Counted from the first letter of the stretch, positions 24,124-60,759 are shown. The stretch: DNA of 64,000 nucleotides from Gammaproteobacteria bacterium (GCA_023266115.1 JAHFRU010000001.1:186001-250000); one strand, 5' to 3'. The notes: generated by a model from the letters alone, not told the origin. A program made the numbers and translations.

Positions 24124-24143
24124 AGTTCGATCGTGAGGAGACT

Positions 24144-25190: not shown

Positions 25191-25210
25191 AAACGATCGG
25201 TGATAAGCAA

Positions 25211-26458: not shown

Positions 26459-26988
26459 TATTTACGGAGACCAATCTAAGAGGCGTATATGTCATCGAAA
26501 TAGAGCCGATATCCGATCAGCGCGGTTTTTTTGCACGGACATGGTGCCGGAAGGAGTTTGAAAAGAGTGGTCTCGGTGCGGGTTTGGTACAAGCGAATAT
26601 CTCCTTTAATGAGAAAGCCGGGACATTGCGTGGCATGCATTATCAGGTCGCGCCACATGAAGAAGCCAAGCTTGTGAGATGCACCGCGGGTGCGATCCAC
26701 GATGTCGTTATCGATCTGCGCCGGGATTCCGCGACGTATAAACACCATCTCGGTATCGAGTTGACGGCCGAAAACCACCGGATGTTGTATATACCAAAGG
26801 GATTTGCCCACGGTTTTCAGACGCTGCGAGATCGTACCGAAGTATTTTACCAGATGGAGGAGCTTTACGTGCCAGAGGCGGCCCGGGGTGTTCGATGGAA
26901 TGATCCGGCCTTTGATATCGCCTGGCCGTCCGCGGAGAACAGAATAATATCCGAGAAGGACGCCAGTTGGCCCGACCTTGACGCCTGA
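26455..26988 (+). CDS. rfbC: dTDP-4-dehydrorhamnose 3,5-epimerase-like protein
   Basis: Cupin-fold epimerase acting on 4-keto-6-deoxy sugars. The 177-residue product begins MIFTETNLRGVYVIE and contains DQRGFFAR, TLRGMHYQ, the catalytic HDVVIDLR region and YIPKGFAHGFQTL. The start at 26455 overlaps the methyltransferase stop by four bases (ATGA), indicating translational coupling. The family's nucleotide specificity (dTDP or CDP) cannot be read from these motifs; with rfbF in the same operon, a CDP sugar is plausible. Confidence 0.9.
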   Translation: MIFTETNLRGVYVIEIEPISDQRGFFARTWCRKEFEKSGLGAGLVQANISFNEKAGTLRGMHYQVAPHEEAKLVRCTAGAIHDVVIDLRRDSATYKHHLGIELTAENHRMLYIPKGFAHGFQTLRDRTEVFYQMEELYVPEAARGVRWNDPAFDIAWPSAENRIISEKDASWPDLDA

Positions 26989-36400: not shown

Positions 36401-36943
36401 AACGGTAGTGGTATAGGGAGCCACGCTGCCATCACTGAGTGTCGCCTGCAACTGCCCTCGGGCGGCATAACCGCCGACATACAAGCGCAGGGTGCGGGTG
36501 GTGGTATCGGCGGGGACGGTCAGGGAGAAGCCGTTACCGACGCCGGAGAAATAGAGACCCGCGGTAGTGCCAGACGTACTGGCGGTCGGGGTACCGTCGC
36601 TCCAGGCATAGCTGACACGCACGCCGGCGGGCGCCTGGTAGCGTGACGCGGCGATCGATCCGATCAGCGTGTAAGGACTGATTTGCGCCGTGACGCCGGT
36701 CTTGCGATTCAGGCTCGATGCACTGGTCAATCCCCAGTGCGCCCAGTCCGTCGTGCCTTCGGTCGTCAGATTCACCGTGCCCGGGCTGGCGGCGTTACTG
36801 CCGAGCAGGGCTGACGCAGTGACATCTCCGACGCTGGCGCATGTGAGTACCACAGCAAAAAGCGCTGCTGCTACGACCGAATTGAATCGTTGACGCAGAA
36901 GCGCCTGATTACGGACGTACAGATGAAAGAATTGGTTTGGCAT
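33437..36943 (-). CDS. Large secreted SGNH/GDSL hydrolase with a duplicated beta-rich domain
   Basis: Start taken at ATG 36943 (1168 residues); an in-frame TTG at 36961 adds six residues. A signal peptide (VVAAALFAVVLTCASVGDVTASA) is followed by a ~190-residue domain beginning ALLGSNAASPGTVNL, an Ig-like domain with a putative Ig fold (APTWTSIGNKSVAAG...), and a second copy of the 190-residue domain that is identical at the DNA level. Then come a laminin/DUF1080-like domain, a short Ig-like domain, an SGNH hydrolase domain (GDSITNGS, LGTNDAL, DVWHPNALGY) and a ~110-residue C-terminal domain shared with the 37272-40163 product. SGNH enzymes are esterases or sugar O-deacetylases, so polysaccharide modification is plausible. 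No PEP-CTERM or LPXTG tail is seen. Confidence 0.82.
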   Translation of the reverse strand: MPNQFFHLYVRNQALLRQRFNSVVAAALFAVVLTCASVGDVTASALLGSNAASPGTVNLTTEGTTDWAHWGLTSASSLNRKTGVTAQISPYTLIGSIAASRYQAPAGVRVSYAWSDGTPTASTSGTTAGLYFSGVGNGFSLTVPADTTTRTLRLYVGGYAARGQLQATLSDGSVAPYTTTVDNPSGVVDRLVTLNFSANSPATLTVSYTLLGDYGGTGNITLAAASLVVPPPPVNQAPTWTSIGNKSVAAGNLLNFTVTASDPDGPSPLTLTTSTLPGTAAFTDQLNGTGTFNWTPTAANVAGSPYAVTFTATDGNGLFTNQTINITVTSASSAALLGSNAASPGTVNLTTEGTTDWAHWGLTSASSLNRKTGVTAQISPYTLIGSIAASRYQAPAGVRVSYAWSDGTPTASTSGTTAGLYFSGVGNGFSLTVPADTTTRTLRLYVGGYAARGQLQATLSDGSVAPYTTTVDNPSGVVDRLVTLNFSANSPATLTVSYTLLGDYGGTGNITLAAASLVVPPPPVTLPVTENFSSGMGNWTIVNDSGTASSWAVVSAALQQQNRVESVNAFDHSYHKGTYAYYTAGTSLSNYRFSADAIFLGAGLADDIGIMFRYQDNNNYYRLSMNSRFGFTRLEKKTGGVFTPLAVNARGYNFGELLRFTIDLNGSSIQVMVNDDPLFAVNDSGLSTGTVALYTQDKAAFDNVVIQNPANTAIVTLATPLARDVIVDNAITATAIGTNIPGGGGVEFLLDSVTSILDNSVPYSNTFSGLVAGNHTIEAIVRDAGNVELARDTNTLVGVGGDTYIAAGDSITNGSGDNYAADNLSSRMLGFQGYETNLSVLLEGYQGKPVIVYNEGIGGDESVDTAFNRIGSILARHSNSNKALVMLGTNDALALVPSGSGCTGTACNGTYKGNMQSLINTVTAAGKTVYTALPPPVFGSGGPTPFADPATATLNTNYISAYNSVVLSELTGRQLGPNLYSYFLGAGQNRFSLFSDVWHPNALGYTAIAALWYNTLNPATPAALPFVLDSLVPSTTTPYVKQNLLETGDTYYVDAAYTLTAVPAALDNGRWIMAANGDTGNTSASYINFSTDRPVTVYIAYDGGAAALPGWMSTFTSTGLTLSTTDPFSPTLNLYSRSFSAGPVTLGGNAAAGSSGTDSHYVAIVVAN
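35373..35941. repeat. 569-bp direct repeat, copy A (inside the SGNH gene)
   Basis: By line-by-line comparison, 35373-35941 is identical to 36243-36811 at an offset of 870 bases, with no mismatch seen. Each copy encodes the same ~190-residue beta-rich domain, and the copies are separated by an Ig-like domain of about 300 bases. Confidence 0.95.
36243..36811. repeat. 569-bp direct repeat, copy B (inside the SGNH gene)
   Basis: Second copy of the repeat at 35373-35941; it encodes the N-proximal domain of the mature SGNH protein. Identity ends at 36811, where the signal-peptide side begins. Confidence 0.95.
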
Positions 36944-37271
36944 AACGTTAGTTTTCGACAAGGTCTAAAACGGTACGAACGTGTTTACTGCAAGGAAACG
37001 AACCTTCCTTGGCGTGCTTGCGCTCTTGGTGCTCAGCCCGGTTCTAACGGTGTGCACAAATAAAGCTGACGACGGACTATTATAGCAATCATGGTAATCC
37101 GCCGCGCTTGTGATTATAAACATATGAAAAACAACCTATTAAGAAGATATTCGATAACTGACAGGTTTGCCTACGCAGTGGCTGCCTTGTAAAAGAGCCT
37201 TCAGCTGCTCCGCGTGTAAAGTAATCAGGAATGGCGACGGTTACCGGTCGTCGCGCATGTTTTGCAATACC
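36944..37271. other. Intergenic region between the two SGNH genes
   Basis: This 328-base gap holds the likely promoter of the minus-strand SGNH gene. I saw no gene, no clear terminator for the gene ending at 37272, and no sigma-54 site. A short AT-rich stretch lies around 37110-37150. Confidence 0.4.
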
Positions 37272-40163
37272 CTAGTTCGCTACGACAATCGCTACATAAT
37301 TGGAATTTGCGCCGCTCGATCCCGCCGCTGCATTTCCCCCGAGCGTGATCGAGCCCGCACTATACGACCGGCTATACAAGTTCAGAATCGGTGAAAACGA
37401 ATCGGTCGTTCCCACTGTCAGACCGGTATTCGTAAAGGTGCTCATCCAGGTCGGCAGGGCCGTGGCCCCGGCGTCATACGCGATGTAAACCGTCACGGCA
37501 CGATCGGTCGTAAAGCTGATGTAGCTGGGCGATGTGTTGCCGACATCGGCATTGGCCGTCATGATCCAGCGTCCGCTGGCCAATACCGACGGTACCCCAT
37601 TCAGGGTATACGACGCGTCCACATAGTAGCTATCACCAGTCTCCAGCAAATTTTGCTTGAGATATGGCGCCACGGTGGAAGGTACCAGACTGCCGAGTAC
37701 GAAGGGCAGGGCTACCGGTGATCCCGGATTCAGCGCGTTGTGCCACAGCGCCGCTATTACCGCATACCCCAAACCATTCGGATGCCAGACGTCGGCGAAC
37801 AGGCTATAGCGGTTTTGTCCCGCCCCAAGGAAATAGGCATAGAAATCTGGGCCCTGTTGGTGTCCGGTCAGCTGGCTCGAAATAACACTGTTATAGGGTT
37901 GCACGTAGTTGGTATTCGCCGTCGCGGTGGCCGGATTGGCGAACGGCGGTGGACTGCCAAACACCGGCGGCACCTTGGCGACATAGACCGTCTTGCCGGC
38001 GGTGGCAAGGGTATTGATCAACGATTGCATATTGCCCTTGAACGTACCGGTACACGCAGCACCCGAGCAGCCGCTGCCACTGGGAATCTGCGCCAATGCG
38101 TCATTGGTGCCGAGCAGCACCAGCGCCTTGTTACTGCCCGGGTGACGCGCCAGTATCGAATTGACGCGCGTGAATGCCGCATCTGCGGATTCATCGCCGC
38201 CGATGCCCTCGTTATAGACCATCACAGGTTTGACCTGCGATTGCTCCAGCAGACGGGCGACGTCGGCCGGGTATCCCTGGAAACCGAGGATACGCGCGGT
38301 CTGATTGTCCGTCGCGTAGTAGTCACGGCTGCCATTCGTGATGCTATCGCCAATGGCGGCATAGTAATCGCCGTGCGTACCGACGAGCGTGTTGGTATCT
38401 CGGGCCAGTTCCAGATTATTGGTATCGCGGATAATCGCGTCGATCGTATGGTCGCCCGCGGCGAAACCGGTGAAGGTCGCGCTGTACGGGGATGTGGCAT
38501 CCAGCATCGACTGGCCGCCATCCAGTAGAAATTCGACCTTGCCGCCAGCCGGGACGTTCGTTGCGATGGCGATCGCGGTGAGGGTAGCGCTGTTAGTCGT
38601 TACGGTCCGGGCTACCGGCGTGGCCAGAGTGATCGTCGGTGTCGTTGCCGCTTCCTGGATCAGCACGTTGTCAAACGATGCCTTGTCCTGGGTATACAGC
38701 GCCACGGAGCCGGACGCCAGACTGGTGTCGTTCGCGGCAAACACCGGGTCGCCATTGACGAACACCTGGATCAGGGAGCCGCTGACGTCCACGGTAAAGG
38801 TGAGCAATTGTCCCGTGCTATAACCGATAGCGTTCACTGCCAGCGAGCTGAAGACGCCGCCGATCTTTTTTTCCAGGCGCGTGTAGCCATAACGGGAATT
38901 CATCGACAAACGATAGTAGTTGTTGTTGTTCTGGTAACGAAACATCACGCCGATGTCTTCCGCCAGCTGGGTGCCAAGAAAGGTGGCATCAACGCTGAAA
39001 CGATAATTCGTTAACGTGGTGCCGACCGTATGATAGGCGTAGGTGCCTTTATGGTAGGTTTCGCTCAATGCGCCCAGCGCGCCATTCTGCTGTTGCAGCG
39101 CGCCACCGATGACGGCCCACGACGAGGCAGTGCCGCCATCATCGACAGTCGTCCAGTGACTGGTTCCAGCATTGAAGTTATCCCTGAACACGACGTTTAC
39201 GGTGACCGAGCCAACGCTGGTGCCGCCACGTCCGTCATTGATGGTGTAGGTAAAGGTTTCGGTACCGAAGAAATTCGCGGCCGGGGTATATGCCAGCCCA
39301 TCACCCGCGCCGTTAATAGTGGCGATTCCACCGTTATTCGGGATGCTTACGGCGGAGATGATCAACGGATCGTTCTCGGAATCGAAGTCTACGCCGTTGC
39401 CGTTATTGGCCAGCACGGCCAATGTGGTCGTGCTGCTCCCGGTCACCGTAAAAACGTCGTTTTTGGCGATGGGCGGATCGTTTACAGCGATAATCGTGAC
39501 GGCAACCGTAGCAATGTTCGAGGTGTTGTCGACAATATCCCGAACGGTATAGGTGAACGAGTCGGCGCCCGAATAGTCAAGGGCAGGCGCGTAAGTGATG
39601 TTGCCATTGCTGCTGATATCGGCGTTGCCGTGTGCAGGCAATGATGCCAGTGTCACTGTCGCCGGGTTCAGCACGCCATTGGCGCTCGAGTCGTTGGCCA
39701 TGACACTGATGGAAATTGGCGTGTCTTCGCTGGTTGTCGCTGCGTCATTCAGGGCAACGGGCGCTACCCGGTTCGGCAGGATATTCACCGACACAACCGC
39801 CAGTTCCGAGTCACCGAAACCGTCGTTGACCTTGAAGGTAAAAAAATCGCTGCCGGTGGCGTTGTTATTCGGCGTGTAGGTAAATTCACCACCGGCCTGA
39901 TTCGAAACCACAGCGGTTCCACGAGTACCGTTCGCTACGATGCGATACGTCGGAATGCGTCCGATCAAAATCGTCGCGTTGAAATAGCCCGTCACAGGCG
40001 TGTTTTGCAGCGTGGATATCGCGCTCGACTTTACCGTGGCAAGCGCGGAGTCGGTGCCGCCACCGCTGCCTCCCGATCCGCCGCCGCAGCCGGCGAGTGC
40101 AAGTAACAGGCACCCGGTTAGGGCGCCGCGCCGGGCATGCGTGATGTGATTGGTGGTATACAT
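37272..40163 (-). CDS. Lipoprotein SGNH/GDSL hydrolase with cadherin-like repeats
   Basis: Start at 40163 (963 residues), chosen because gggaggag precedes it and it places a lipoprotein signal (LLLALAGCGGGSGG) at the N terminus; an upstream start adds 16 residues. After a glycine/serine linker come three cadherin-like/VCBS-type domains (about 60-330, with repeats such as DSFTYTVRD and ETFTYTINDGRGG), a laminin/DUF1080-like domain, an Ig-like domain, the SGNH domain (IGDSITNGS, LGTNDAL, DVWHPNGLGY) and the shared ~110-residue C-terminal domain. It is a paralogue of the 33437-36943 product from the laminin-like domain onward. Surface attachment by lipid is likely; the target ester is unknown. 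Confidence 0.84.
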   Translation of the reverse strand: MYTTNHITHARRGALTGCLLLALAGCGGGSGGSGGGTDSALATVKSSAISTLQNTPVTGYFNATILIGRIPTYRIVANGTRGTAVVSNQAGGEFTYTPNNNATGSDFFTFKVNDGFGDSELAVVSVNILPNRVAPVALNDAATTSEDTPISISVMANDSSANGVLNPATVTLASLPAHGNADISSNGNITYAPALDYSGADSFTYTVRDIVDNTSNIATVAVTIIAVNDPPIAKNDVFTVTGSSTTTLAVLANNGNGVDFDSENDPLIISAVSIPNNGGIATINGAGDGLAYTPAANFFGTETFTYTINDGRGGTSVGSVTVNVVFRDNFNAGTSHWTTVDDGGTASSWAVIGGALQQQNGALGALSETYHKGTYAYHTVGTTLTNYRFSVDATFLGTQLAEDIGVMFRYQNNNNYYRLSMNSRYGYTRLEKKIGGVFSSLAVNAIGYSTGQLLTFTVDVSGSLIQVFVNGDPVFAANDTSLASGSVALYTQDKASFDNVLIQEAATTPTITLATPVARTVTTNSATLTAIAIATNVPAGGKVEFLLDGGQSMLDATSPYSATFTGFAAGDHTIDAIIRDTNNLELARDTNTLVGTHGDYYAAIGDSITNGSRDYYATDNQTARILGFQGYPADVARLLEQSQVKPVMVYNEGIGGDESADAAFTRVNSILARHPGSNKALVLLGTNDALAQIPSGSGCSGAACTGTFKGNMQSLINTLATAGKTVYVAKVPPVFGSPPPFANPATATANTNYVQPYNSVISSQLTGHQQGPDFYAYFLGAGQNRYSLFADVWHPNGLGYAVIAALWHNALNPGSPVALPFVLGSLVPSTVAPYLKQNLLETGDSYYVDASYTLNGVPSVLASGRWIMTANADVGNTSPSYISFTTDRAVTVYIAYDAGATALPTWMSTFTNTGLTVGTTDSFSPILNLYSRSYSAGSITLGGNAAAGSSGANSNYVAIVVAN

Positions 40164-40202
40164 CTTGATCGGGAGGAGTTTTTCGTGCCTGTTTACGCAG
40201 TC

Positions 40203-40220
40203 GGGCCCCAAAAGGGGCCC
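40203..40220. repeat. Perfect hairpin between the FGE-like and SGNH lipoprotein genes
   Basis: A 7-bp GC-only stem (gggcccc / ggggccc) with an AAAA loop sits in the 85-base gap. On the minus strand it lies after the stop of the FGE-like gene and before the SGNH ribosome binding site. It lacks a T-run on either side, so it could be an RNA-stabilising or attenuating hairpin rather than a terminator. Confidence 0.5.
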
Positions 40221-47936: not shown

Positions 47937-49061
47937 ATGAAATTGTTAACCGTTTTTGGTACGCGGCCAGAAGCGATCAAGATGGCCCCCGTCATTAAGG
48001 CCTTGCGGGCGGACGGACGCATAAGCACTTCCGTTTGTATCACTGCCCAGCATCGTGAGATGCTCGATTCCGTACTGCGTTTGTTCAAAATTACGCCCGA
48101 TTACGATCTGAATATCATGAAGAAGGGGCAGGATCTTACAGCGATCAATTGTGCCGTACTGGAAGGTATGCGGGACGTGATCTCGGCGTTGAAGCCTGAC
48201 AGAATACTGGTGCATGGCGACACGACGACGACGCTCGCTGCTACTCTGGCGGCGTATTATCACAAAGTTCCGGTCGGCCACGTCGAGGCAGGGCTCCGGA
48301 CTTGGAATATTTATTCTCCGTGGCCAGAGGAGATCAATCGCAAGCTGACGTCTGGAATTGCAGACCTTCATTTCGCCCCTACCAGTTGGGCGCGGGACAA
48401 TCTGTTGCGCGAGGGTGTTCCGGAATCGTCGATTCATGTCACCGGAAATACCGTCATAGATGCTCTGCTGGAAGTGGCCGGTTATCTTGAGAGCAACGAC
48501 GGACTTAACCGGGAGATGTCGGCGCTTTTCCCGTTTCTTGACCCGAGCAGGCGCCTGATTCTTGTGACGGGTCATCGGCGCGAAAGTTTCGGCGGTGGTT
48601 TCGAGCGCATATGCCGGGCGCTTGCTACCCTGGCCGCGCGCAATGATGTGCAGATTGTTTACCCGGTACACCTGAATCCCAACGTACAGGAGCCGGTCAA
48701 TCGAATACTGGGTAGCACCGGTAATGTTTATTTGATAAGCCCTCTGGATTATCTTCCATTTGTTTATCTGATGACCCGGTCATACCTGATACTGACCGAT
48801 TCGGGAGGTATCCAGGAAGAGGCGCCGTCGTTGGGGAAGCCGGTGCTGGTGATGAGAGACACCACGGAGCGGCCCGAAGCGGTTCAGGCGGGTACGGTGC
48901 GTCTGGTCGGTACCGACGAGCAACTGATGGTGACGGAGGCAGAGCGATTGCTGGACGATGACCAGGCTTATAAAGCGATGAGTTTCGCTCACAACCCGTA
49001 TGGTGACGGAAAGGCCGGTTCAAGAATCGTTAACAGCACGATTCAAGCTCACAAACTTTGA
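47937..49061 (+). CDS. wecB: UDP-N-acetylglucosamine 2-epimerase (non-hydrolysing)
   Basis: Interconverts UDP-GlcNAc and UDP-ManNAc. The 374 residues begin [20 protein letters not shown] and include [19 protein letters not shown], the [10 protein letters not shown] and TGHRRESFG segments, and the C-terminal [15 protein letters not shown] motif, all diagnostic. The length matches the family norm. No UDP-ManNAc dehydrogenase (WecC) is seen; the ugd-like gene at 8717 is a UDP-glucose type. The gene is 47 bases before the large fusion. Confidence 0.95.
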
Positions 49062-49108: not shown

Positions 49109-52100
49109 ATGGGTAGCGACATGACAATTAACAACTTCTATAAGAGCGTTCTTGGGGACTATGAGAAAAATCTGGGTATCTTTTTCGATCCGGACACTGG
49201 GGCTGTTGTCGAGCCGGGCCGTGCAGACGGTACGCCGAGGTTTCTTTTTACCGAGGTCACCGGGTATGCAATTCTCGATGACTTGACGTTGCTGTCGCTG
49301 ACGGGCAACCGGCGATATCTCGCCAAGGCAAAAAAAAGCGCCGAGTGGATCATGAGCCACGCCCAGGACCCCTCCGGTGGCGTGCTGACCCGGTACTATT
49401 TTGAGCGGGATGGCGAGCCGGACCTTGCCGACAAGTCGTTTGCCGGGCGACGGATATTCTCCTTCGATGTCGCGATCTGTTTGCGTGGCATGGTGGCGCT
49501 CTACCGGTTTGCCGGTGACGAACCGGTACTACGTTCTGCCATTCGCATGGGCGATTACCTGGTAGAGCGGGTCATCAGCCCGAAAGGCGAGGTCGACGCC
49601 ATCTATGATGCCGCCAAGGGTGAACCGGTACCCGCCGAGCGGGCCAAGTGGTCGAGGCGCTTTGGCGCATTTCATTCCAAAGTCGCCGAAGCACTTATCG
49701 ATCTGTACGAAGCCACGAATCAGGAGAAATACTTCTCCGCCGCCGAATCCATCTGTCGGAACGTGCTGCAGTTCCAGTCGCTACGGGGCAACTTCGAGAC
49801 ATCCAGCGGTCGAACCGAATTGCATCCCCATTGCTATGCTACCGAGGGCCTGTTACATGTGGGGCGCAAGACCAATAACGACGTTCTTATCGAGTCGGCC
49901 CGGCGAGCGACCGAGTGGGCGCTGGGGCACTGTAAAGAGGGTGAGATTCCTCAGGTCATCGACTCGTCGGAAGACGTCCCGCTGGCGCGTTTCCGAACAG
50001 ATGCGCTTTCCCAGGTTCTGGCCCTTGCCGCCGATCTGATGCAGATGGGGCGACTCGATTCTGCCTGGCAGCCGGTGTTGGACCGGTTGGCGGCCAAGCT
50101 GCTCGAGATGAAAAAGGGCGGCGATGGCTATTTTCAGTATGGTTTCTACGAGAGGGAATTTCAGGGCAAGCTGGAGGCCGACACGCAAAGCTACTGGACC
50201 AACATGTTCTGTTTGCGTGGTCTGAGTAAATACTACCTGTCGTCAATTCTGAGCGATACCTATGTGGCGATACTGGCCGGCGGGATCGGGTCGAGGGTTT
50301 GGCCTATCTCCTGCGAAAATCGTCCGAAGCCGGTGTCCTATTCCTTGCTTGGCGACCGTTCGTTATTGCAGGAGACCATACGACGATTCACACACGATTA
50401 CTTCATCAGGCCGGATCGCATATTTATTCTGTGCAGTGCAAACGCGCTGGATAAAGTGTCCGATCAGGCGGGGCAAGAAGGGGTTCCGATAGAGAACTGC
50501 GTTATTGAAAAGGAACCCAAGGGAACTATCCCGGCGGTGGGCCTTGCGCTGGATGGTCTGCCCATCGACGGTGATCAGCAAAATCGCCTGGTAATTATTT
50601 CCATGGGCGATAATGTGATCGCCCCCTATGCGCGATTTCAGCATGCAGTAGCCTGCGCCTTGATTACCGCGCGAGAGAACAGTTGCATAGTCAGCATAGG
50701 GAAACCCGCGGACAAGAGCGCGGCTATCGATATTCGATTCGGGCACCACTTATATACCAGAAAATTGCACTCCTATCGGTCCTATGAGGTCCCCCGGTTT
50801 ATTGAAAAGCCCGGTCAGGAAGATTTTGAAGAAGTCAGAAATGCGCCTGGAAGCCTCGCGTGGGAATGCGGTGCGATTGTATTCAACGAGTCCTACTATC
50901 GAAGGTTGGTGCCTGGCAAGCCGCAGTCCGGAAATCTCGCTGAGAATCTTCTTTCCCGCGCCGCGCCATGGAAACGGGACGACGATGGTCAAGTCAGACT
51001 GGCGACGTCGATTCTCGATCCTGAAGCACGCTTCGAGGATTTTGGTGTCCCGGGAACAAGCGTAAAACGGTTTTATCAGGGACACAACAGATTCGATCGC
51101 GGCGATGGAAATGTTTGCCTGGGTCAGCCGGAAAAGGTGACGCTGCTTTCCTGTGCCGATAACCTGGTGATTTCGGATGACCTGCCGATCGAGATAATCG
51201 GTCTTCGAAACCATGTCGTTATCGACAATGCGATGACCAACACGGCCGTTGTCATGCCGATTGAGGAGGTCCGGCATTTGCCAAATCTTTATCGATTATT
51301 CTCCGGATCGAAGCGCTACGAGGCGTTTATTGAAGGAGGGCCCAAGGCATTGGTCGCTGATCCGACGACATTCGTTGAGAAAAGTCCCGATGTCAGCGCA
51401 AATTCAGATTTCGGATTGGTCTTTGCCTATAACATAAAGGAAAAGTTGTCCATTCGGCGTAACAAGAGAGGGCTGCGTATCGTCAACGGGACATATCCTG
51501 CGCTGCATGACAACGACTTCAATGTCTTAATGAAAAAGCAGTCGGAAGATCCCCGGCTGGTCGAGCATTTGATCGATGTTGGGACGCTGGCAAAGGCTCT
51601 TGTTGGTGGATCGGTTGCCCTTTCGGAAACGGGCGCCGATTTGCTGAGCAAGCTCTGTCTGTATCACGCGATTGGCGGGTATCTGACCGAGGCGGGAGAG
51701 CGAAAAGAGGCGGAAGCAATTACGCGATTTCGTGCTATTTCGAAACTTGACCGCCGGTTTCTTGATTCGCGGGTCGTTGATGAATTGATGACATTGTACG
51801 GCCGAAGCGACGCTGATTCGAATGCCACGTCAGCGCAGCTATTAAGCGACAATGTAAATTCAGCGGTAGCGTTCTTGCGAGCCGGTGTTGTGGAAAATCC
51901 CGATTTTCGGGATATTCTCGTGGCGTTGATTCAGGTACAGGATAATCCTCACGCATTTGCTGCATTCAGGAAGGATGTGCTTCAGCCTGTATTTGCTGAG
52001 CTGGAGGACGAAATCATCCGGGTGTTCGCGTGTTTCAAGGTGGCAAAAAATATCGTCATGGGGCGTTGGCTATGGCGGCGACGTAACCTGAAGGAGACAG

Positions 52101-52603
52101 GGGCCGCGCAGGGTATATTTCTTCAGCATGATCGCGGAGATCTGGAAGATTTGCCGTTTATTCTGTCGTTCACGGTGAAGTGGCTCGTCAGCGCTGGCAT
52201 TGATCCGCAGATATATGTTGATCGCGTCAACGAAATTCTTGCCAGAAACGATAAGGTCTTCATCGACCTCATACATAGATTGCAAGGCGGTACCAAGATG
52301 TTGTGGTCCGGCGTCGTTTATCTCGCCATGGTCACGAAAGGGCCCGGCAGCGACCGTGAGTCCATTGCACGCACGCTGGAGGACGCCGTGGAGGATATTG
52401 AAAAAAATCCGGATCAATATTTTCAGTACTCGCAGATTCTGGAGCTGCCGTTTCTGTTGGAGGATGTGGCGCCGGTTTGTAGCTCAATAACCCAGGGGTC
52501 GGTTGCGATGGTCAGGGAGCTGATAGTCGACTGGTACCACAAAAACTGGAGGAAGATTAAACCGCATGCGCATAACGGGCTCGTTTCCAGGCTGGTCTCG
52601 TAA
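49109..52603 (+). CDS. Three-part fusion: toroid-like domain + mannose-1-phosphate guanylyltransferase + unknown helical domain
   Basis: 1164 residues. Part 1 (about 1-380) is helical with repeats typical of (alpha/alpha) toroids seen in N-acylglucosamine 2-epimerase or C5-epimerase/GH families (AFHSKVAEALIDLYEATNQEKYFSAAES; HPHCYATEGLLHVGR). Part 2 (about 385-735) is a sugar-nucleotide pyrophosphorylase: LAGGIGSRVWPIS, RPKP, EPKGTIPA, MGDNVI, FIEKP, WECGAIVFN and a beta-helix end LPIEIIGLRNHVVIDN, matching GDP-mannose pyrophosphorylase (ManC) with altered loop residues. Part 3 (about 740-1164) is mostly helical and unlike the cupin that follows ManC in bifunctional enzymes; I do not recognise it. 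It lies 47 bases after wecB. Start could also be ATG 49121. The product is probably a GDP-sugar; the toroid may act on the same sugar. Confidence 0.72.
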   Translation: MGSDMTINNFYKSVLGDYEKNLGIFFDPDTGAVVEPGRADGTPRFLFTEVTGYAILDDLTLLSLTGNRRYLAKAKKSAEWIMSHAQDPSGGVLTRYYFERDGEPDLADKSFAGRRIFSFDVAICLRGMVALYRFAGDEPVLRSAIRMGDYLVERVISPKGEVDAIYDAAKGEPVPAERAKWSRRFGAFHSKVAEALIDLYEATNQEKYFSAAESICRNVLQFQSLRGNFETSSGRTELHPHCYATEGLLHVGRKTNNDVLIESARRATEWALGHCKEGEIPQVIDSSEDVPLARFRTDALSQVLALAADLMQMGRLDSAWQPVLDRLAAKLLEMKKGGDGYFQYGFYEREFQGKLEADTQSYWTNMFCLRGLSKYYLSSILSDTYVAILAGGIGSRVWPISCENRPKPVSYSLLGDRSLLQETIRRFTHDYFIRPDRIFILCSANALDKVSDQAGQEGVPIENCVIEKEPKGTIPAVGLALDGLPIDGDQQNRLVIISMGDNVIAPYARFQHAVACALITARENSCIVSIGKPADKSAAIDIRFGHHLYTRKLHSYRSYEVPRFIEKPGQEDFEEVRNAPGSLAWECGAIVFNESYYRRLVPGKPQSGNLAENLLSRAAPWKRDDDGQVRLATSILDPEARFEDFGVPGTSVKRFYQGHNRFDRGDGNVCLGQPEKVTLLSCADNLVISDDLPIEIIGLRNHVVIDNAMTNTAVVMPIEEVRHLPNLYRLFSGSKRYEAFIEGGPKALVADPTTFVEKSPDVSANSDFGLVFAYNIKEKLSIRRNKRGLRIVNGTYPALHDNDFNVLMKKQSEDPRLVEHLIDVGTLAKALVGGSVALSETGADLLSKLCLYHAIGGYLTEAGERKEAEAITRFRAISKLDRRFLDSRVVDELMTLYGRSDADSNATSAQLLSDNVNSAVAFLRAGVVENPDFRDILVALIQVQDNPHAFAAFRKDVLQPVFAELEDEIIRVFACFKVAKNIVMGRWLWRRRNLKETGAAQGIFLQHDRGDLEDLPFILSFTVKWLVSAGIDPQIYVDRVNEILARNDKVFIDLIHRLQGGTKMLWSGVVYLAMVTKGPGSDRESIARTLEDAVEDIEKNPDQYFQYSQILELPFLLEDVAPVCSSITQGSVAMVRELIVDWYHKNWRKIKPHAHNGLVSRLVS

Positions 52604-52746: not shown

Positions 52747-53829
52747 ATGACTTTCGAACGGAGTGGCGATGAATTGCCCGCCAGGCCACAACGCGCTGAA
52801 CCCTCGGCAGTTGTAATCTCGATGCGGATGAGCGGTCATGCAGGACCGTCCGGCTATGACCGGCTGGTTGATTACCTTCCTTGTAACGTCATTAGACCAC
52901 CAGTCAACTGGTCTTTTAATCAACGGGCCGTGGCAAAAGTATTAAAGCCGCTTATCAAGAAGGCCGGGTCGCAGTGGTACCAGCGGGGTAATTTGATCTG
53001 TGAGTTGGCGGCTGGCGCACGATGGTGGCGAGAGGCGGGACAGGTGTTTCATTTTCTCTACGGGGAGAATTCATATTGCTATCTGGGGCATTTAAAGAAG
53101 TTTTCCAAACCGAAGCCGATAGTTTGTACGTACCATTTGCCTCAGGAAAAGTTTCGTAGAATCGTTTTTGACACTAGGCCGATCAAACGACTGGACGCGG
53201 TAGTCGTAGTATCCACGGTGCAGCGGGATATATTTTCAGATCTCGTAGGCCAGGATCGGATTCACTACATTCCACATGGAGTCGACGTTCAATACTTCCA
53301 GCCACCCACGACCCCTGCCAAGAGCAACAAGTTTCGCTGCCTGTTTGTGGGGTCGCATCTCAGGGATTTTGACGTTTTTGCAGCGGCGGCCAAGATTTTG
53401 CGCGGTAAGGAAATAGAGTTCGTTGTCGTAACGTCACCATCCGAACACGATCGTTTCGCCGGGCTCGACAATGTGACGATTTTGAATGGGATAAGTGACA
53501 AGGAGCTATTGGAGTTGTATCAATCGTCGCAGCTGTTTGTCATGCCGATAACGGATGCAACTACTAATAATGCGCTGCTTGAGGCGATGGCGTGTGGACT
53601 GCCGACAATAACAACCGATTTTGTCGGGATACGCGATTACGTGGACGAGTCCGCGGCTATTCTGACGAAACGAGGGGACGTCTCTTCGTTTGTTGATGGA
53701 ATAAACTACCTGTACGGTAACGATTCTCGACGAATGGATATGGGGCGTGCTGCCCGCGAACGAGCGCTTGCGCTCAGTTGGGAGCGAGTTGCCGGTCAGG
53801 TTACGACGCTATATGGCAGGTTAATTTAG
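52747..53829 (+). CDS. Glycosyltransferase, GT4-like
   Basis: 360 residues; GT-B fold. The C-terminal domain has FRCLFVGSHLRDFDVFAAAAKIL and the donor-binding NNALLEAMACGLPTITTDFVG motif with its conserved glutamate. The N-terminal 30 residues are unusual (MTFERSGDELPARP); a start at the in-frame ATGs near 52822/52828 would give a more typical N terminus, so the start is uncertain. It is followed 45 bases later by another GT4 gene, so the two may act in sequence. Confidence 0.82.
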   Translation: MTFERSGDELPARPQRAEPSAVVISMRMSGHAGPSGYDRLVDYLPCNVIRPPVNWSFNQRAVAKVLKPLIKKAGSQWYQRGNLICELAAGARWWREAGQVFHFLYGENSYCYLGHLKKFSKPKPIVCTYHLPQEKFRRIVFDTRPIKRLDAVVVVSTVQRDIFSDLVGQDRIHYIPHGVDVQYFQPPTTPAKSNKFRCLFVGSHLRDFDVFAAAAKILRGKEIEFVVVTSPSEHDRFAGLDNVTILNGISDKELLELYQSSQLFVMPITDATTNNALLEAMACGLPTITTDFVGIRDYVDESAAILTKRGDVSSFVDGINYLYGNDSRRMDMGRAARERALALSWERVAGQVTTLYGRLI

Positions 53830-53874: not shown

Positions 53875-55095
53875 ATGAACGGCAGTCAACTCAATATTGT
53901 TTTATATGTGAATAGTTTTCTTCCGGCCCTGGGAGGAAGGGAGTTCGTCATCCACTATCTGGCGGATGCATTATTAACGCTTGGACACAAGGCCAGGGTT
54001 GTCGGCCCCGCGGGGTTCTGGAAGCACCGCCAGCTGCGGTTTAACTACCCTGTCCATCGATGGCCAACGCTCAGGGGCATGTTCCCTGAGCAGGTATCAA
54101 TGGCGCATCTGGCGCTGGATACTGCGCTTTGGTCCTGTGATGTCGTTCACGCGCACAACACCTATCCGACCGGGTACACCGCCGCGCGCTTAAAGCGAAC
54201 CAGGAGTATTCCGCTGGTTATTACGCCGCACGGGGAGGACATACAGACGATTCCGGAGATAGGCTACGGTCTCATGCTCGATCCGGGCCTCAGACAGAAA
54301 ATTGTTCTGGCGTTGAAAACCGCAGAACGTATTACCGCGATCAGTACGAAGATACGAGATGTATTAATGGAGGCAGGAGCCGCTGCTGATAAAATCCGGC
54401 TGGTGCCGAACGGCGTGGATTTAAAACGATTCGGTCAAGCAGCCACACTGAATGTGCGTGAGTGGCTCAAAGTAGAACAGGACGCGCGTCTGATAGTGAC
54501 GATAGGACGTTATAATCCGCGCAAAGGGCAGGAGTACTTGGTTCGGGCGATGCCACGAATCCTCGCGCAAGACCAGCATGCAAGATTGGTGATCGTTGGT
54601 GAGAAGACAGAAGTGTTAAGGCCCCTCATTAAAGAGGTCGGCATGGAAGGCAAGGTTATTCTTACCGGGGGAATTAACCCGTCGCAAAATATTCTAAATC
54701 GCGTAACAAAAACATCGCTTCAGCAAGCTGAGCCGGATTATCTTGCCGAATTATTGTGCAGCAGCGAACTTTATGTATCCGCGGGCACCGATGACAATTC
54801 CGAAGGGCTGTCACTGGCGGTACTTGAAGCGATGGGAGCAGGGCTCCCCGTCGTGGCCACTAATATTTCCGGAAACAAGGATGTTGTCAGCGACGGTAAG
54901 AACGGGTATCTGGTCGTGCCCTCGAATGAAGCAGAGTTGGCCGATGCGGTCTTAAAGGTGTTTGCGCGTCGTGATGTTCGGAGCGACATGGTTACGGCAG
55001 CGCGGGCTGTGGCATCCCAATACGATTGGGTAAACGTTGCTCGTCAATATGTGGATGTCTACCGGGATGCCATCGAATGCCAGAGGCGTAAGTAG
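53875..55095 (+). CDS. Glycosyltransferase, GT4-like
   Basis: 406 residues. The N-terminal domain opens NIVLYVNSFLPALGGREFVIHYLADAL with the glycine loop; the C-terminal domain contains TIGRYNPRKGQEYLVRAM and the EGLSLAVLEAMGAGLPVVAT donor-binding motif. The VTPHGED-like segment (VITPHGEDI) supplies the central histidine region. This is a standard retaining GT4. It is 120 bases before the asparagine-synthetase start, so probably within the same transcription unit. Confidence 0.87.
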   Translation: MNGSQLNIVLYVNSFLPALGGREFVIHYLADALLTLGHKARVVGPAGFWKHRQLRFNYPVHRWPTLRGMFPEQVSMAHLALDTALWSCDVVHAHNTYPTGYTAARLKRTRSIPLVITPHGEDIQTIPEIGYGLMLDPGLRQKIVLALKTAERITAISTKIRDVLMEAGAAADKIRLVPNGVDLKRFGQAATLNVREWLKVEQDARLIVTIGRYNPRKGQEYLVRAMPRILAQDQHARLVIVGEKTEVLRPLIKEVGMEGKVILTGGINPSQNILNRVTKTSLQQAEPDYLAELLCSSELYVSAGTDDNSEGLSLAVLEAMGAGLPVVATNISGNKDVVSDGKNGYLVVPSNEAELADAVLKVFARRDVRSDMVTAARAVASQYDWVNVARQYVDVYRDAIECQRRK

Positions 55096-55215
55096 TGTTA
55101 GTTCCGGAATTTCGCCTATGGAGGCGTCTGGTTTTTGAGCGATATTGCGGGCGCTCTCATGTCGCTTCGGATAGTCCGGAGTGCCGGTATTGTCAATATT
55201 TGAAAGGGATTGTCT

Positions 55216-57147
55216 GTGTGCGGTATAGCCGGTTTCTGTGATTTCCGAAAACGCCTGACTCGTGACGAGCTAAGGCGCATGACCGATGTTTTGTGGCATC
55301 GCGGGCCCGACGGTTCCGGTTATGAATTCTACCCAGTGGGCAACGCACATATCGGTTTGGGGCACCGGAGATTGTCGATTATCGATTTGTCCGCCGGTGC
55401 TGCACAGCCGTTGAAGGATGAGAGCGGCGACTACGTAATCGCGTTTAATGGCGAAATATATAACTACGTTGAAATACGGGAAGAGCTTAAAAAGCAGGGA
55501 TTTAAGTTTTTCACTTCCTCCGACACTGAGGTGTTGTTGAAGGCGTATATAAAATGGGGGGTCGACGCGGTACATAAGCTGATCGGCATGTTCGTATTCA
55601 TCATCTACGACAAAAAGAAAGAGAAGCTGTATCTTTTCCGGGACCGGGCGGGCGTAAAGCCTCTCTATTACAGCTATAAAGACGGGCTATTTCTGTTCGC
55701 ATCGGAGCTCAAGGCTTTTCATCAAACCGCGGCATTTGAAAAAGAAATCGACGCTGACTCGTTGCCGTTGTATTTCAGGTTCGGATACGTGCCTGCTCCG
55801 TACACGATCTTCAAGAATACCTACAAGCTCAAGCCGGGCCATTACTTAACGATCGATTTGAACTCCCGGGACCTGAAAGAAGAAAAATACTGGGATGTTA
55901 TCGATTATTACAATATGCCGCAGCTCGACATTTCGGAGCCCGACGCGGTTGATGAAATGGAAAAGTTGCTGGTATCGGCCTTTCGGTATCGCATGGTCGC
56001 AGACGTACCGGTGGGGGTTTTTCTCAGTAGTGGTTATGACAGTACCGCGGTGACTGCGTTGTTGCAGACCGACATGACGGATCGGCTGAAGACCTTTACG
56101 ATTGGATTTGACGATAAGCGCCACAACGAAGCGAACGAGGCGAAGGCCATCGCTGAGTATCTAGGTACTGATCATACCGAATATTACTGTTCCGAGGCGG
56201 ACGCAAAAGAGATCGTGTCGACGCTGCCATATTACTATGATGAGCCGTTTATCGATACCTCTGCCATACCAACGATGCTTGTTAGTCGTATGGCGAGGGA
56301 GAACGTAACGGTGGCATTGTCGGCTGATGGCGGAGATGAGACCTTCGTCGGATATGACCATACAGAAGAATATGTTGACGACTACCGTAAGATACTCAGG
56401 TATCCGCCCTGGCTAAGGCGATCATTTAACGCATCTACAGGTTATTTATCGAACGTCTCCAAATCGTACCGTGGTTACAACAAGCAGGTTCAGATTCTAT
56501 TAAACCAATTCTGGAAGCTCAGATCGCGCTGCTCTGTCGATCAGTTAATCGATATCTTTCTACAAGGGAGATGCACGGATTACCGGATCTATCGATTACT
56601 CAATACAACGGTAGATACAAAAAACGCGTTCTTTAATAACGCCACCAAATTAAGCGGCGGTATCGATGATATCACCAAGAGTCTGGCGATCGACTATCAG
56701 AACTATATGGTCGATGACATCTTAACCAAGGTGGACAGGGCTACGATGTCAGTCAGTCTGGAAGGCCGAGAGCCGCTTCTGGATCATAGAATCATAGAGC
56801 TGGCGGCACGCTTGCCGTTGTCGTACAAATATGATCGCGGAAGCCGGAAAAAGATTCTAAAGAAAATTGTACATAGACACGTTCCAGAGCCTCTGATGAA
56901 CAGACCTAAGAAGGGGTTTGGCATTCCCGTCAATAAGTGGCTGCGAGGGGATCTGTCGAAACTACTTTCGTATTACCTTGATGAGCCGCGACTGAACGAT
57001 CATGGACTTTTTGATACAGGATATGTGACATACCTGAAGAACAGATATCTCAAGGACGGTTCCGAATACAACATCGTGTGGACGATTCTGGTGTTTCAGA
57101 TGTGGTATCAGAAGTGGATCAAAGGCGAAGGCGAAATGATTACCTAA
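55216..57147 (+). CDS. asnB: Glutamine-dependent asparagine synthetase homologue
   Basis: 643 residues. I chose GTG at 55216 because it puts the catalytic cysteine at position 2 (MCGIAGFCDF), which the N-terminal nucleophile glutaminase requires; gaaaggga is upstream. The glutaminase domain shows RGPDGSG, FNGEIYNY and SSDTEVLL. The synthetase domain has the PP-loop SSGYDSTAV (about 269-277) and SADGGDE. In polysaccharide clusters such enzymes amidate uronic acids (as WbpS does in Pseudomonas O antigen), so amidation of a glucuronate or related sugar is possible. Housekeeping asparagine synthesis is the alternative. Two glutaminase-deficient paralogues follow. Confidence 0.9.
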   Translation: MCGIAGFCDFRKRLTRDELRRMTDVLWHRGPDGSGYEFYPVGNAHIGLGHRRLSIIDLSAGAAQPLKDESGDYVIAFNGEIYNYVEIREELKKQGFKFFTSSDTEVLLKAYIKWGVDAVHKLIGMFVFIIYDKKKEKLYLFRDRAGVKPLYYSYKDGLFLFASELKAFHQTAAFEKEIDADSLPLYFRFGYVPAPYTIFKNTYKLKPGHYLTIDLNSRDLKEEKYWDVIDYYNMPQLDISEPDAVDEMEKLLVSAFRYRMVADVPVGVFLSSGYDSTAVTALLQTDMTDRLKTFTIGFDDKRHNEANEAKAIAEYLGTDHTEYYCSEADAKEIVSTLPYYYDEPFIDTSAIPTMLVSRMARENVTVALSADGGDETFVGYDHTEEYVDDYRKILRYPPWLRRSFNASTGYLSNVSKSYRGYNKQVQILLNQFWKLRSRCSVDQLIDIFLQGRCTDYRIYRLLNTTVDTKNAFFNNATKLSGGIDDITKSLAIDYQNYMVDDILTKVDRATMSVSLEGREPLLDHRIIELAARLPLSYKYDRGSRKKILKKIVHRHVPEPLMNRPKKGFGIPVNKWLRGDLSKLLSYYLDEPRLNDHGLFDTGYVTYLKNRYLKDGSEYNIVWTILVFQMWYQKWIKGEGEMIT

Positions 57148-57197: not shown

Positions 57198-58964
57198 ATG
57201 TCTAAACTGGTACTTGTGTGCTCTCGATCGGCGGATCAATTTCCTCGGGGGGCAAAAACGATCAATGAAATATCTAAAAGGCTGACCCCGGATAATATCT
57301 CCGCTCGTCCGCCTATGGTACTTATGGGCGATGGCATAGTGATCGGTATAGTAAATCCTGTCGCGTCGTTGCCAATTAAGCGTTGTAGCGTTTGTCTGGG
57401 AACATTTTTTGGCGCTGCTGATGATTGGTGGATGCCCGGAGCCGATGCGCCAGACGGTAACTACGCATTGTTTCGAAGTGGCGAATACCAAGTAGAACTG
57501 GTGAGCGATGCCGTTGCGTCTCGGACGATCTGGTATGCGAAAACGGATGAACTGTTTATCGCCTCCACGTCGCAACGCGCCATCGTTTATTTGCTTCAAA
57601 GCTACGAGCCGAACACCAGCGTTTATACATGGATGTTGTCGTCAGGAACTCTCGGTTCCGGATTGTCGTGGGATAGGCGAGTTCAAGGCGTTCCAGTCGA
57701 TGCGCGCCTGATGTTGGACCGACGTGAGTGGACGACCAAGCTATCAACCGAGACGGTTTACTTTTCTGCCGAGAAACTTTCTGATAGAGATCACGAAAGA
57801 AACCTGCGGAAAGCGATAACTGATACATTTGATCATCTAGATATGGAATTAGACAAATGGATATTGCCGTTGTCGGGCGGTTATGACAGCCGCGCGATCC
57901 TGCAGATGCTGACGGATCGGTCAGGGCTGAAAGCAATCACATGGGGCCTGCGGTCCGCACTCCATAACAAGAAAAGTGATGCCTGTGTCGCGCGCGATCT
58001 CGCACAGAAGTACGGGATACCTCATGAATATTTGGAAACGGATTTATCTGATGAGCCTGTGAATGAAATATTCAAGCGATTTCTTGTTGCGGGCGAAGGT
58101 CGCGTGGATCACATATCGGGATACATGGATGGGTTTTCGATATGGAAGCATCTTGTTGAGTCTGGTAATTACGGCGTAATTCGCGGAGATTCAGTATTCG
58201 GCTGGATACCTGTAGCAAATCCGATCGACGTAAGGCGTGCCGTTGAGTTGTTACTTTTGAGCGATTATCGGAACCTTGGAAAGGTTCCGTTTCATGAGCA
58301 GTTTGAACAGCACCTTCCAAAGATATTTGATAAACGGGAGAATGAGTCGTTAGAGGCATGGCGAGATCGTTTATATCAAAGTTTCCGCATACCCGTGGTG
58401 ATGGCGGCTCTCAATGATTTGAAAAACTCTTACGTCGAAATTATTAACCCACTATTGTCCAGGCGGATAGTTCGCGCTGTTCGAAAAATGCCGGATCGTC
58501 TCCGGACAGACAGAATGTTGTTCAAGAAAATCGTTGTCGCTGCAAACAGGGACATTCGGTTTGCGGAATATCCGGCAATAGAAATGTCGTCAAATATCTT
58601 GAAAGATACGAGAGTGATCGACCATATCATGGGGACGCTACTCAGCGCGCGCGCCGAGAAGCTGTTTCCCCCCGTTTTAATTCAGCTGTTAAAAAAACAT
58701 ATTTTCGGCGACGGTCAGCTGGCCTCCCCCTATAGGCCTGCTAATACGAATATGAAGGCGATCCTCAAGAATATTCTGCCCAAAAAGGCTATCGATACGG
58801 TAAGGCCCGTTGTAGCCTGTCTTTGGCGCTCGTCGTCGAGTATCGAGCTGGATTTATACAAGCTGGCGTTTCGGGCGTACATAATTTGCGAGATGGATCG
58901 CATGTTGTGTGAAGATGCAGGCGCTCTAGTCGTAGACAAAACAGCGAAGTCTCTCAAGACCTAG
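57198..58964 (+). CDS. Asparagine-synthetase-like amidoligase without the glutaminase cysteine (copy 1)
   Basis: 588 residues. The C-terminal part is an ATP-pyrophosphatase synthetase domain with PP-loop LSGGYDSRAIL (about 225-235). The N-terminal part keeps the Ntn-like layout (APDGNYALFRSGEYQVELVSDAVASRTIWYAKTDELFIA) but begins MSKLVLVC, so position 2 is serine and the usual RGPD and NGEIYN residues are missing; glutaminase activity is unlikely. Such proteins adenylate a carboxylate and join it to an amine (as in lasso cyclases or beta-lactam synthetases). No precursor-peptide or RiPP maturation gene is nearby. It is 50 bases after asnB and paralogous to the next gene. Its carboxylate and amine are unknown. 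Confidence 0.75.
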   Translation: MSKLVLVCSRSADQFPRGAKTINEISKRLTPDNISARPPMVLMGDGIVIGIVNPVASLPIKRCSVCLGTFFGAADDWWMPGADAPDGNYALFRSGEYQVELVSDAVASRTIWYAKTDELFIASTSQRAIVYLLQSYEPNTSVYTWMLSSGTLGSGLSWDRRVQGVPVDARLMLDRREWTTKLSTETVYFSAEKLSDRDHERNLRKAITDTFDHLDMELDKWILPLSGGYDSRAILQMLTDRSGLKAITWGLRSALHNKKSDACVARDLAQKYGIPHEYLETDLSDEPVNEIFKRFLVAGEGRVDHISGYMDGFSIWKHLVESGNYGVIRGDSVFGWIPVANPIDVRRAVELLLLSDYRNLGKVPFHEQFEQHLPKIFDKRENESLEAWRDRLYQSFRIPVVMAALNDLKNSYVEIINPLLSRRIVRAVRKMPDRLRTDRMLFKKIVVAANRDIRFAEYPAIEMSSNILKDTRVIDHIMGTLLSARAEKLFPPVLIQLLKKHIFGDGQLASPYRPANTNMKAILKNILPKKAIDTVRPVVACLWRSSSSIELDLYKLAFRAYIICEMDRMLCEDAGALVVDKTAKSLKT

Positions 58965-59040: not shown

Positions 59041-60759
59041 ATGTCGAAAGCGGTGTTTGTCACGACACGAATCGGGGCGCCGGTCAAGTTTGACGGACGC
59101 CACATCACGGCGCTATCGGCGCGATTGACGCCGGATAATATTAAGCCGGTACCGCCCACGGTTATTGAAGGTGACGGCATCCTGCTTGGGATTATTAATC
59201 CAACAGACTCTTTAAGGATCCAGGGATGCAGTGTTTGCATGGGGACATTGTTCGGTTACAGCCCCGACTGGTGGCGGCCGGAATCGGACGCGCCGGATGG
59301 CAGCTACGCGTTGTTTCGGGGGGGTGAGAAGACGGTCGAGCTTCTGACGGATATCCTTGCGTCGCGTACGATCTGGTATGTAAAGACTGATGACTTGTTT
59401 ATCGCCGCTACCTCGCAGCGGGCCATCGTTTATTTTCTGCAAAGCTACCAACCAAACGAAACTGCCTACCCCTGGATGCTGTCGTCCGGTACTTTGGGGC
59501 CCGAGCTATCCTGGGACAAAAGAATACGGTGTCTTCCAGGGGATGCGCGCCTCATACTGGATAGGGAGAGCTGGGAGCTCAAGCTCGACAGAGCGCCGGT
59601 TGCTTTCCGTGCGGATAACAGCTCGAAGAATGAGCATGAGCAACGTCTCAGAGACTCAATCCAGAACACTTTTGATGGGCTGGATCTGGATTTTGACCGA
59701 TGGGTACTACCACTGTCCGGCGGTTACGATAGCCGGGCGATACTCCAGATGTTGAAGGACAGGCCTGGTCTGAAGACAGTCACATGGGGCGTCAAGGCGG
59801 CGCTGTCAGATGAAAACGGCGATGCATGTGTGGCGAGGGATCTGGCTAGTCATTATCGCGTTCCTCATCAGTACTTCTATACGGACTTGTCCGATGAGAA
59901 TGTGGAATATCTCTTTACGCGATTTCTAGTCGCTGGCGAAGGGAGAATTGACCACATCTCCGGATATATGGACGGATTCGCGATTTGGAAAGCTCTATAT
60001 GAAAGGGGTTATCAAGGAATTATCCGTGGCGATGAGGCTTTCGGATGTCGCGCTATACGGAGTGATCGGCAGGTCTATAAAAACATGGGCATGCAGGTGC
60101 TATCCGATTTCGAAAATGTCGGGATGCTTCAAGAGGAATGCGGGGCGGGCATTCAGGTATGGCCACGTAGTATTGAAAGACAACCGGATGAAAGTCGCGA
60201 AACATGGCGGGACAGGGCAAATACGTTATTCGAGTTTCCTTTTGTATTTGCTGCGCTCAGCGATCTCAAGCTCTCTTATGTCGAAATCAGCGCACCGCTG
60301 CTGTCCAGGAAAATCATTACACAGGTACGATGTATGCCGGATAGTTTGCGGACGAATAAGAGCTTGTTTAAACACATGGTCACGCAGAATGGGCCGGGTA
60401 TCCGGTACGCGACAGGTGCTGCGATCGAATCGCGAGACGATATTCTACGCAGCGACACGGTCGCGTCTGCCATTCGCAATGGCCTGCGTCAGGAGCGTGC
60501 CGGGAGTAAGCGTATCGACATCCTTAGCCGGTTCGCTCTCGAGCTGTTGGCGAATGAAACCGCTTTGCCGGGGAGGCTATCGATCAACAAAGGGGAGAGA
60601 ATTATTCGGCGGATCAGGGCGATGCTCTCTATCAGGAGTCAGGGTATGTTATTGGATCCTTATCTGTTGGCGTTCCGCGTATACATTATTCGTCGAATGC
60701 ACGAGATATTGGACAGCGACGCGAGCGCGTTCTCCATGACTGCATTAGGAGATCAATAA
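59041..60759 (+). CDS. Asparagine-synthetase-like amidoligase without the glutaminase cysteine (copy 2)
   Basis: 572 residues. Alignable over the whole length with the previous gene: both start MSK, both have RLTPDNI, WMLSSGTLG, the PP-loop LSGGYDSRAIL at about residue 225, VAGEGR.DHISGYMDGF.IWK and the SYVEI..PLLSR motif near 410. Differences in the C-terminal third suggest different carboxylate or amine partners. The N-terminal serine and the missing glutaminase residues are shared, so the loss predates duplication. A 76-base gap separates the two genes. It is the last gene before a 550-base noncoding stretch. Confidence 0.75.
   Translation: MSKAVFVTTRIGAPVKFDGRHITALSARLTPDNIKPVPPTVIEGDGILLGIINPTDSLRIQGCSVCMGTLFGYSPDWWRPESDAPDGSYALFRGGEKTVELLTDILASRTIWYVKTDDLFIAATSQRAIVYFLQSYQPNETAYPWMLSSGTLGPELSWDKRIRCLPGDARLILDRESWELKLDRAPVAFRADNSSKNEHEQRLRDSIQNTFDGLDLDFDRWVLPLSGGYDSRAILQMLKDRPGLKTVTWGVKAALSDENGDACVARDLASHYRVPHQYFYTDLSDENVEYLFTRFLVAGEGRIDHISGYMDGFAIWKALYERGYQGIIRGDEAFGCRAIRSDRQVYKNMGMQVLSDFENVGMLQEECGAGIQVWPRSIERQPDESRETWRDRANTLFEFPFVFAALSDLKLSYVEISAPLLSRKIITQVRCMPDSLRTNKSLFKHMVTQNGPGIRYATGAAIESRDDILRSDTVASAIRNGLRQERAGSKRIDILSRFALELLANETALPGRLSINKGERIIRRIRAMLSIRSQGMLLDPYLLAFRVYIIRRMHEILDSDASAFSMTALGDQ

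Follow-up and report, generated by a model that had tools for sequence, protein, structure and literature searches.

A protein combining a toroid, a ManC-type nucleotidyltransferase and an orphan domain, encoded beside wecB in a gammaproteobacterial exopolysaccharide locus

The window analysed here, a stretch of 64,000 nucleotides (G000:C35:186001-250000) from a gammaproteobacterial assembly of 3.1 Mb in 46 contigs, is an exopolysaccharide locus with regulators of the XrtA/PEP-CTERM type. The markers of this type are PrsR (742.5 bits) and an XrtA-associated ATPase (385 bits), with matches to the XrtA chain-length and tyrosine-kinase families lying below cutoff, and the window also carries Wzm/Wzt-type transporter genes, a glucose-1-phosphate cytidylyltransferase gene and many GT4 genes. 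On its forward strand wecB (47937..49061), which encodes a non-hydrolysing UDP-GlcNAc 2-epimerase (TIGR00236, 517.8 bits), is followed after 47 bp by the gene for a protein of 1164 amino acids, referred to here as P0001 (49109..52603), and this in turn by two genes assigned by Pfam to GT4-type glycosyltransferases (52747..53829 and 53875..55095). Elsewhere in the window, the cytidylyltransferase gene heads a forward-strand series (22153-26988) that continues with FAD oxidase-like, sugar epimerase, C-methyltransferase-like and rfbC-like open reading frames (ORFs) and resembles a biosynthetic route to a branched CDP-sugar, and an aminopeptidase-like ORF of 441 amino acids (29361-30686, forward) adjoins the Wzm/Wzt-type genes of the polysaccharide cluster.

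The P0001 frame begins with ATG and is open throughout, and a full-length ortholog with 97% identity and no stops is present in another MAG, from the same genus as the window (G001, ‘Gammaproteobacteria bacterium isolate X1_MaxBin.010’; locus L003, VBWC01000010.1), where the surrounding 10.4 kb are collinear with the window at 95.8% nucleotide identity. Between these two copies dN/dS (NG86) is 0.15 for the whole protein, being 0.089 in the toroid, 0.155 in the guanylyltransferase-type (GMP) module and 0.216 in the C-terminal part; P0001 is therefore a real protein in which all three parts, the orphan domain included, are under purifying selection, and the sequencing error or frame artefact that the first-pass annotation had allowed for at 49109-52603 is ruled out. 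The composition which that annotation described, a toroid, a guanylyltransferase-type domain and a C-terminal domain of no known family in a single chain of 1164 residues, is borne out by Pfam, by TIGR01479 and by the ortholog. Among 56 relatives searched, the full protein is present only in the window genome and G001. This rarity is measured on sampled genomes, namely those 56 for the whole protein, with 369 genomes of the class and 398 of the phylum for the C-terminal domain, and the single scan across all species used short exact peptides from one protein. A match in a further genome (G034) proved to be a pectic-lyase-like toroid protein rather than a relative of the fusion, and searches for a phage or plasmid origin returned generic GMP matches only.

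Residues 1-380 (49109..50248) form an (alpha/alpha)6 toroid, an assignment that draws on Pfam, alignments, an AlphaFold2 (AF2) model and matches to solved toroids over nearly the full length of the model. The top Pfam score is to GH127 (PF07944, 36.3 bits against a gathering cutoff of 24.9), a partial match covering profile positions 73-249 of 376, below which come weaker matches to pectate-lyase, AGE, GH76, GH88 and GH47 families; such a mixture is the usual signature of this fold. Against the AGE family (PF07221) the isolated toroid reaches 20.8 bits, under the gathering cutoff of 23.4. The AF2 model, built from only two sequences, has a pTM of 0.70 and a mean pLDDT of 63, with its helices arranged in six hairpins. 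Foldseek matched it to GH76, cellobiose 2-epimerase, GH88, GH127 and AGE structures (E about 5e-5 to 7e-4), and VIA-align gave Z scores of 21-25 over ~285-330 residues against cellobiose 2-epimerases, AGE, D-mannose isomerase, YihS, GH88, GH76 and GH105. The epimerases and isomerases (cellobiose 2-epimerase, AGE, D-mannose isomerase and YihS) score Z 22-25 over ~315-330 residues, and the GH76 and GH88/105 folds rank close behind them. Functionally the epimerases and the GH families thus tie, and the model-based matches settle the fold and not the reaction.

The toroid carries the motifs E-x-TGY (49-53), FD-A-LRG (119-127), WS (181), LHP-Y-EG (238-247), R-D-L-Q (296-302) and W-MF (363-367). In a wide alignment that includes haloarchaeal sequences, E49, T51-G52-Y53, F119, W181, L238-H239, Y243, G247 and D285 are invariant, and several of these residues fall at helix starts in the model, positions that would fit a pocket. 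An AGE-type mechanism uses two catalytic histidines, a pair not seen in the alignment, where a single histidine (H239) is invariant. P0001 thus has in common with the AGE superfamily a fold matched over its full length, and differs from it in scoring under the family cutoff and perhaps in this histidine pair.

A profile built from P0001 and one standalone relative matched 8 of 78 genomes, all of one gammaproteobacterial family, and found nothing outside the window’s genus in 185 genomes of the class. The standalone proteins (L047, L123-L129) are of ~360 amino acids, without the nucleotidyltransferase and C-terminal domains that P0001 has, and share with it the motifs E-[IV]-TGY, F-FD-A-LRG, WS-G-F-K, LHP-Y-EG, R-D-Q-L and W-MF. 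In all eight loci wecB lies directly upstream on the same strand, and in most a glycosyltransferase gene follows (in L047 a GT2-GT4 fusion by Pfam), so that the window, with its 47-bp gap between wecB and P0001 and its GT4 genes behind, repeats the order of the standalone modules. On these sequence grounds the P0001 toroid belongs to a distinct wecB-linked family, apart from AGE. Some standalone modules include a methyltransferase-like gene, and none has a nucleotidyltransferase adjoining the toroid. The compact module occupies a recurrent chromosomal position in its family, usually flanked by a parE-like gene and, at its other end, by pyrG or a peptidase gene. More distant relatives of the toroid occur in haloarchaeal surface-polysaccharide clusters with wecB, present in two of them, and a nucleotide-sugar dehydrogenase gene, and also adjoin sulfatase and alginate-lyase-family genes.

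The second part of P0001 consists of a ManC-type NTP_transferase domain (residues 385-598; 50261..50902), followed by a shortened linker and a ManC-type beta-helix tail (residues 599-741; 50903..51331). PF00483 matches residues 388-617 with 49.4 bits (cutoff 21.2) and TIGR01479, the family of bifunctional GMP/PMI enzymes, residues 387-597 with 83 bits, against a curated cutoff of 372.95. The module had been described as the middle third of the protein and is in fact longer, since tblastn to annotated GMP/PMIs spans residues 388-741 and a profile from 17 ManC proteins matches both 388-598 and the tail at 666-708. The cupin isomerase (MannoseP_isomer, PF01050) was indeed missing, as the first-pass annotation had it, from the Pfam scan of P0001; the same genome encodes an intact ManC with its cupin on another contig (G000:C16; PF01050, 195 bits).

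With ManC the module shares the GG-G-R-WP-S signature of NTP_transferase, PK, FIEKP, the metal aspartates and the beta-helix tail, the individual residues kept being those of the G-loop (GG-G-R396), P-K407, D501, FIE566K567P and D644 (in FEDFG), the last of which is the second metal aspartate and lies in the 599-741 segment. It differs from ManC in the want of a cupin, in its two extra domains and in a series of substitutions, GYGY having become RFGH, WNSG having become WECG (585-588) and RNTAPA having become KGTIPA; the mannose-contacting Asn of WNSG is thereby replaced, a mannose-contacting Tyr is also lost in the alignment, and the SIDYAVMEK segment with its flanking residues has no counterpart in alignments of P0001 with ManC. 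For the plant enzyme VTC1, PMC9168903 reports contacts of Asn173 and Gly146 with mannose and describes Glu195-Lys196, Asp111 and Asp219 as critical for catalysis. By our own mapping Asp111 lies at D501, Asp219 at D644 and Glu195-Lys196 in the SIDY/MEK segment; on that basis the metal site is kept, and the sugar site and one critical pair are lost. The description of the domain as clearly a mannose-1-phosphate guanylyltransferase thus holds for the fold and not for the substrate: with the mannose contacts changed and SIDYAVMEK not recognisable, GDP-mannose synthesis cannot be assumed, and the sequence would fit either an altered sugar specificity or a sensor resembling GMPPA.

Pairing of such a module with a toroid is not peculiar to P0001. 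When 349 genomes of Pseudomonadota were searched for AGE toroids, matches appeared in frames of 720-850 amino acids, among which eight translated frames (L097-L100, L102-L104 and L110) join an N-terminal ManC-type GMP module to a C-terminal AGE toroid. These fusions, of ~720-770 amino acids and from eight genomes in two families, are confirmed by Pfam in two examples as NTP_transferase, ManC_GMP_beta-helix and GlcNAc_2-epim (PF07221, 229-307 bits). Like P0001 they have no cupin and carry on a single chain both a GMP module and an (alpha/alpha)6 toroid; unlike it they place the GMP module first, have a true PF07221 toroid and lack the orphan domain. A GMP module with a toroid instead of a cupin is thus an already existing kind of protein, of which P0001 is a rare rearranged variant with a toroid of a different family. 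The claim that no standard enzyme has this order accordingly survives for the exact order, found in one genus only among the sampled genomes, and must be qualified by this precedent in reverse. This comparison suggests that toroids have become partners of ManC-like modules on at least two occasions, ahead of the module in one case and behind it in the other; our search of the open literature found no paper on fusions of either order.

The remaining ~420 residues (745-1164; 51341..52600) have no relatives outside the genus among the genomes covered. Searches against Pfam, NCBIfam, PDB sequences, plasmids (tblastn) and viral contigs yielded nothing convincing, as did those of the 369 class and 398 phylum genomes beyond the genus, the best match in the phylum being to one genome with E 1.2e-4 (30% identity over 120 residues), which is non-significant after ~400 genomes. 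Short, isolated matches to the lysozyme 5i8l and to Csy3 were set aside, and blastp saw no relation that would make the domain an internal duplication of the toroid. Separate profile searches of the three parts, which the first-pass annotation had proposed, placed the toroid (PF07944) and the GMP module (PF00483, TIGR01479) and gave no family for this one, and structure prediction likewise succeeded for the toroid and failed here, the AF2 model from two near-identical sequences being unusable (pLDDT 36) because too few relatives exist. A large orphan part of much the proposed size (~430 residues) is thus real, and its helical nature, for which this model is the basis, is plausible but unproven.

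We tentatively favour a reading in which P0001 supplies activated sugar for the exopolysaccharide, its toroid being an isomerase- or epimerase-like partner of a respecialised nucleotidyltransferase. P0001 would then be a cytoplasmic enzyme of the XrtA/PEP-CTERM-type locus, in which the toroid would stand in for the cupin isomerase or for an epimerase; the ManC-AGE fusions, where an AGE toroid holds that place, are the precedent that supports such a replacement beside a GMP module. That the toroid epimerises the same sugar as the nucleotidyltransferase uses is plausible from the sequence, and its presumed substrate would be a hexose, a hexosamine or a phosphate of such a sugar from the WecB branch, the genetic link to WecB being supported by the position of wecB upstream of all eight standalone toroids and of P0001 and by its presence in two of the haloarchaeal clusters. 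The product would pass to the nucleotidyltransferase, whose altered sugar pocket may make an NDP-sugar other than that of mannose for the neighbouring GT4 enzymes, the intact ManC elsewhere in the genome freeing the P0001 copy for another substrate; the C-terminal domain might serve assembly or regulation, which is the weakest step. The kept residues R396, K407, D501, E566-K567 and D644 and the exopolysaccharide markers of the locus agree with this reading too. Against it count the lone invariant H239 and the GH folds that match nearly as closely. The standalone toroids, with no nucleotidyltransferase beside them, further imply that the job of the toroid does not require one.

Should the altered pocket make a new NDP-sugar, this would represent a new route in exopolysaccharide biosynthesis. 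In its fully specified form, which we hold to be rather doubtful, the sugar-supply reading has a toroid outside AGE act on a WecB-branch sugar, the ManC-derived domain with its rebuilt pocket activate it to a new NDP-sugar, and the previously undescribed domain of ~420 residues coordinate or regulate both; the whole route to an uncommon component of the exopolysaccharide would then lie on a single chain. As a Rosetta-stone fusion P0001 hints at a role of the toroid in the activation of sugars; it also brings to light the orphan domain and offers a first handle on the wecB-adjacent toroid family of one gammaproteobacterial family, with its distant archaeal relatives from surface-polysaccharide clusters.

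The loss of SIDYAVMEK and of the mannose-contacting Asn means that the nucleotidyltransferase may be dead, and a different, somewhat unlikely reading makes of it a ligand-binding ManC-like module without catalysis, which would detect a nucleotide sugar and govern the toroid, WecB or the genuine ManC encoded elsewhere. Besides these losses, the missing Tyr, the mapping of the critical Glu-Lys of VTC1 (PMC9168903) to the lost segment and the intact ManC-cupin protein in the same genome all favour a sensor, and the logic has a precedent in GMPPA, which PMC11228364 describes as a non-catalytic GDP-Man binder that regulates GMPPB. The likeness to GMPPA extends to a ManC/GMPPB-like module with altered catalytic residues and an apparently active copy in the same cell; GMPPA is, however, eukaryotic and without toroid or C-terminal domain, which makes the resemblance a lead only, and the genomes sampled yielded no GMPPA-type protein joined to a toroid. 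P0001 keeps the two metal aspartates, the Arg of the G-loop, the Lys of PK and the Glu-Lys of EKP, and these residues, like the low dN/dS of the module, speak against a sensor. If it is a dead sensor, P0001 would be a bacterial parallel to GMPPA.

A further reading, which we consider improbable though, like the sensor, a serious rival, takes the toroid for a glycan-acting hydrolase, lyase or polymer epimerase that works on the lipid-linked repeat, with the nucleotidyltransferase fused to it for co-expression only. The top Pfam score to GH127 and the ranking of GH76, GH88 and polysaccharide-lyase structures with the epimerases agree with this, as do the glycosyltransferase and occasional methyltransferase genes beside the standalone relatives and the sulfatase and alginate-lyase-family genes beside the haloarchaeal ones. 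The tight pairing with WecB and the nature of the fusion partner, both nucleotide-sugar enzymes, weigh against it and are compatible with either reading. That P0001 is an ordinary ManC-AGE protein with its halves swapped, the toroid converting Fru6P to Man6P and the GMP half Man1P to GDP-Man, is very unlikely: the list of parts equals that of the ManC-AGE fusions except for their order and the C-terminal domain, but the toroid lies under the PF07221 cutoff and clusters with the wecB-linked toroids, the pocket for mannose has changed and a complete ManC-cupin is already encoded in the genome.

Two other regions of the window deserve mention. Downstream of the GT4 genes, a complete asnB-like gene (55210-57147) directly precedes two similar tandem ORFs (57198-58964 and 59041-60759, forward) that resemble the synthase half of asparagine synthase only, the first matching PF00733 with 21.7 bits, just above cutoff; they may encode ATP-dependent ligases that form amides, here within a sugar locus. 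On the reverse strand, 33437-36961 encodes a large protein of secreted type whose N-terminal region holds two repeats that are nearly identical (starting SALLGSNAASPGTVNLTTEG) and whose C-terminal part resembles an SGNH hydrolase, and a related ORF lies at 37272-40211 on the same strand.
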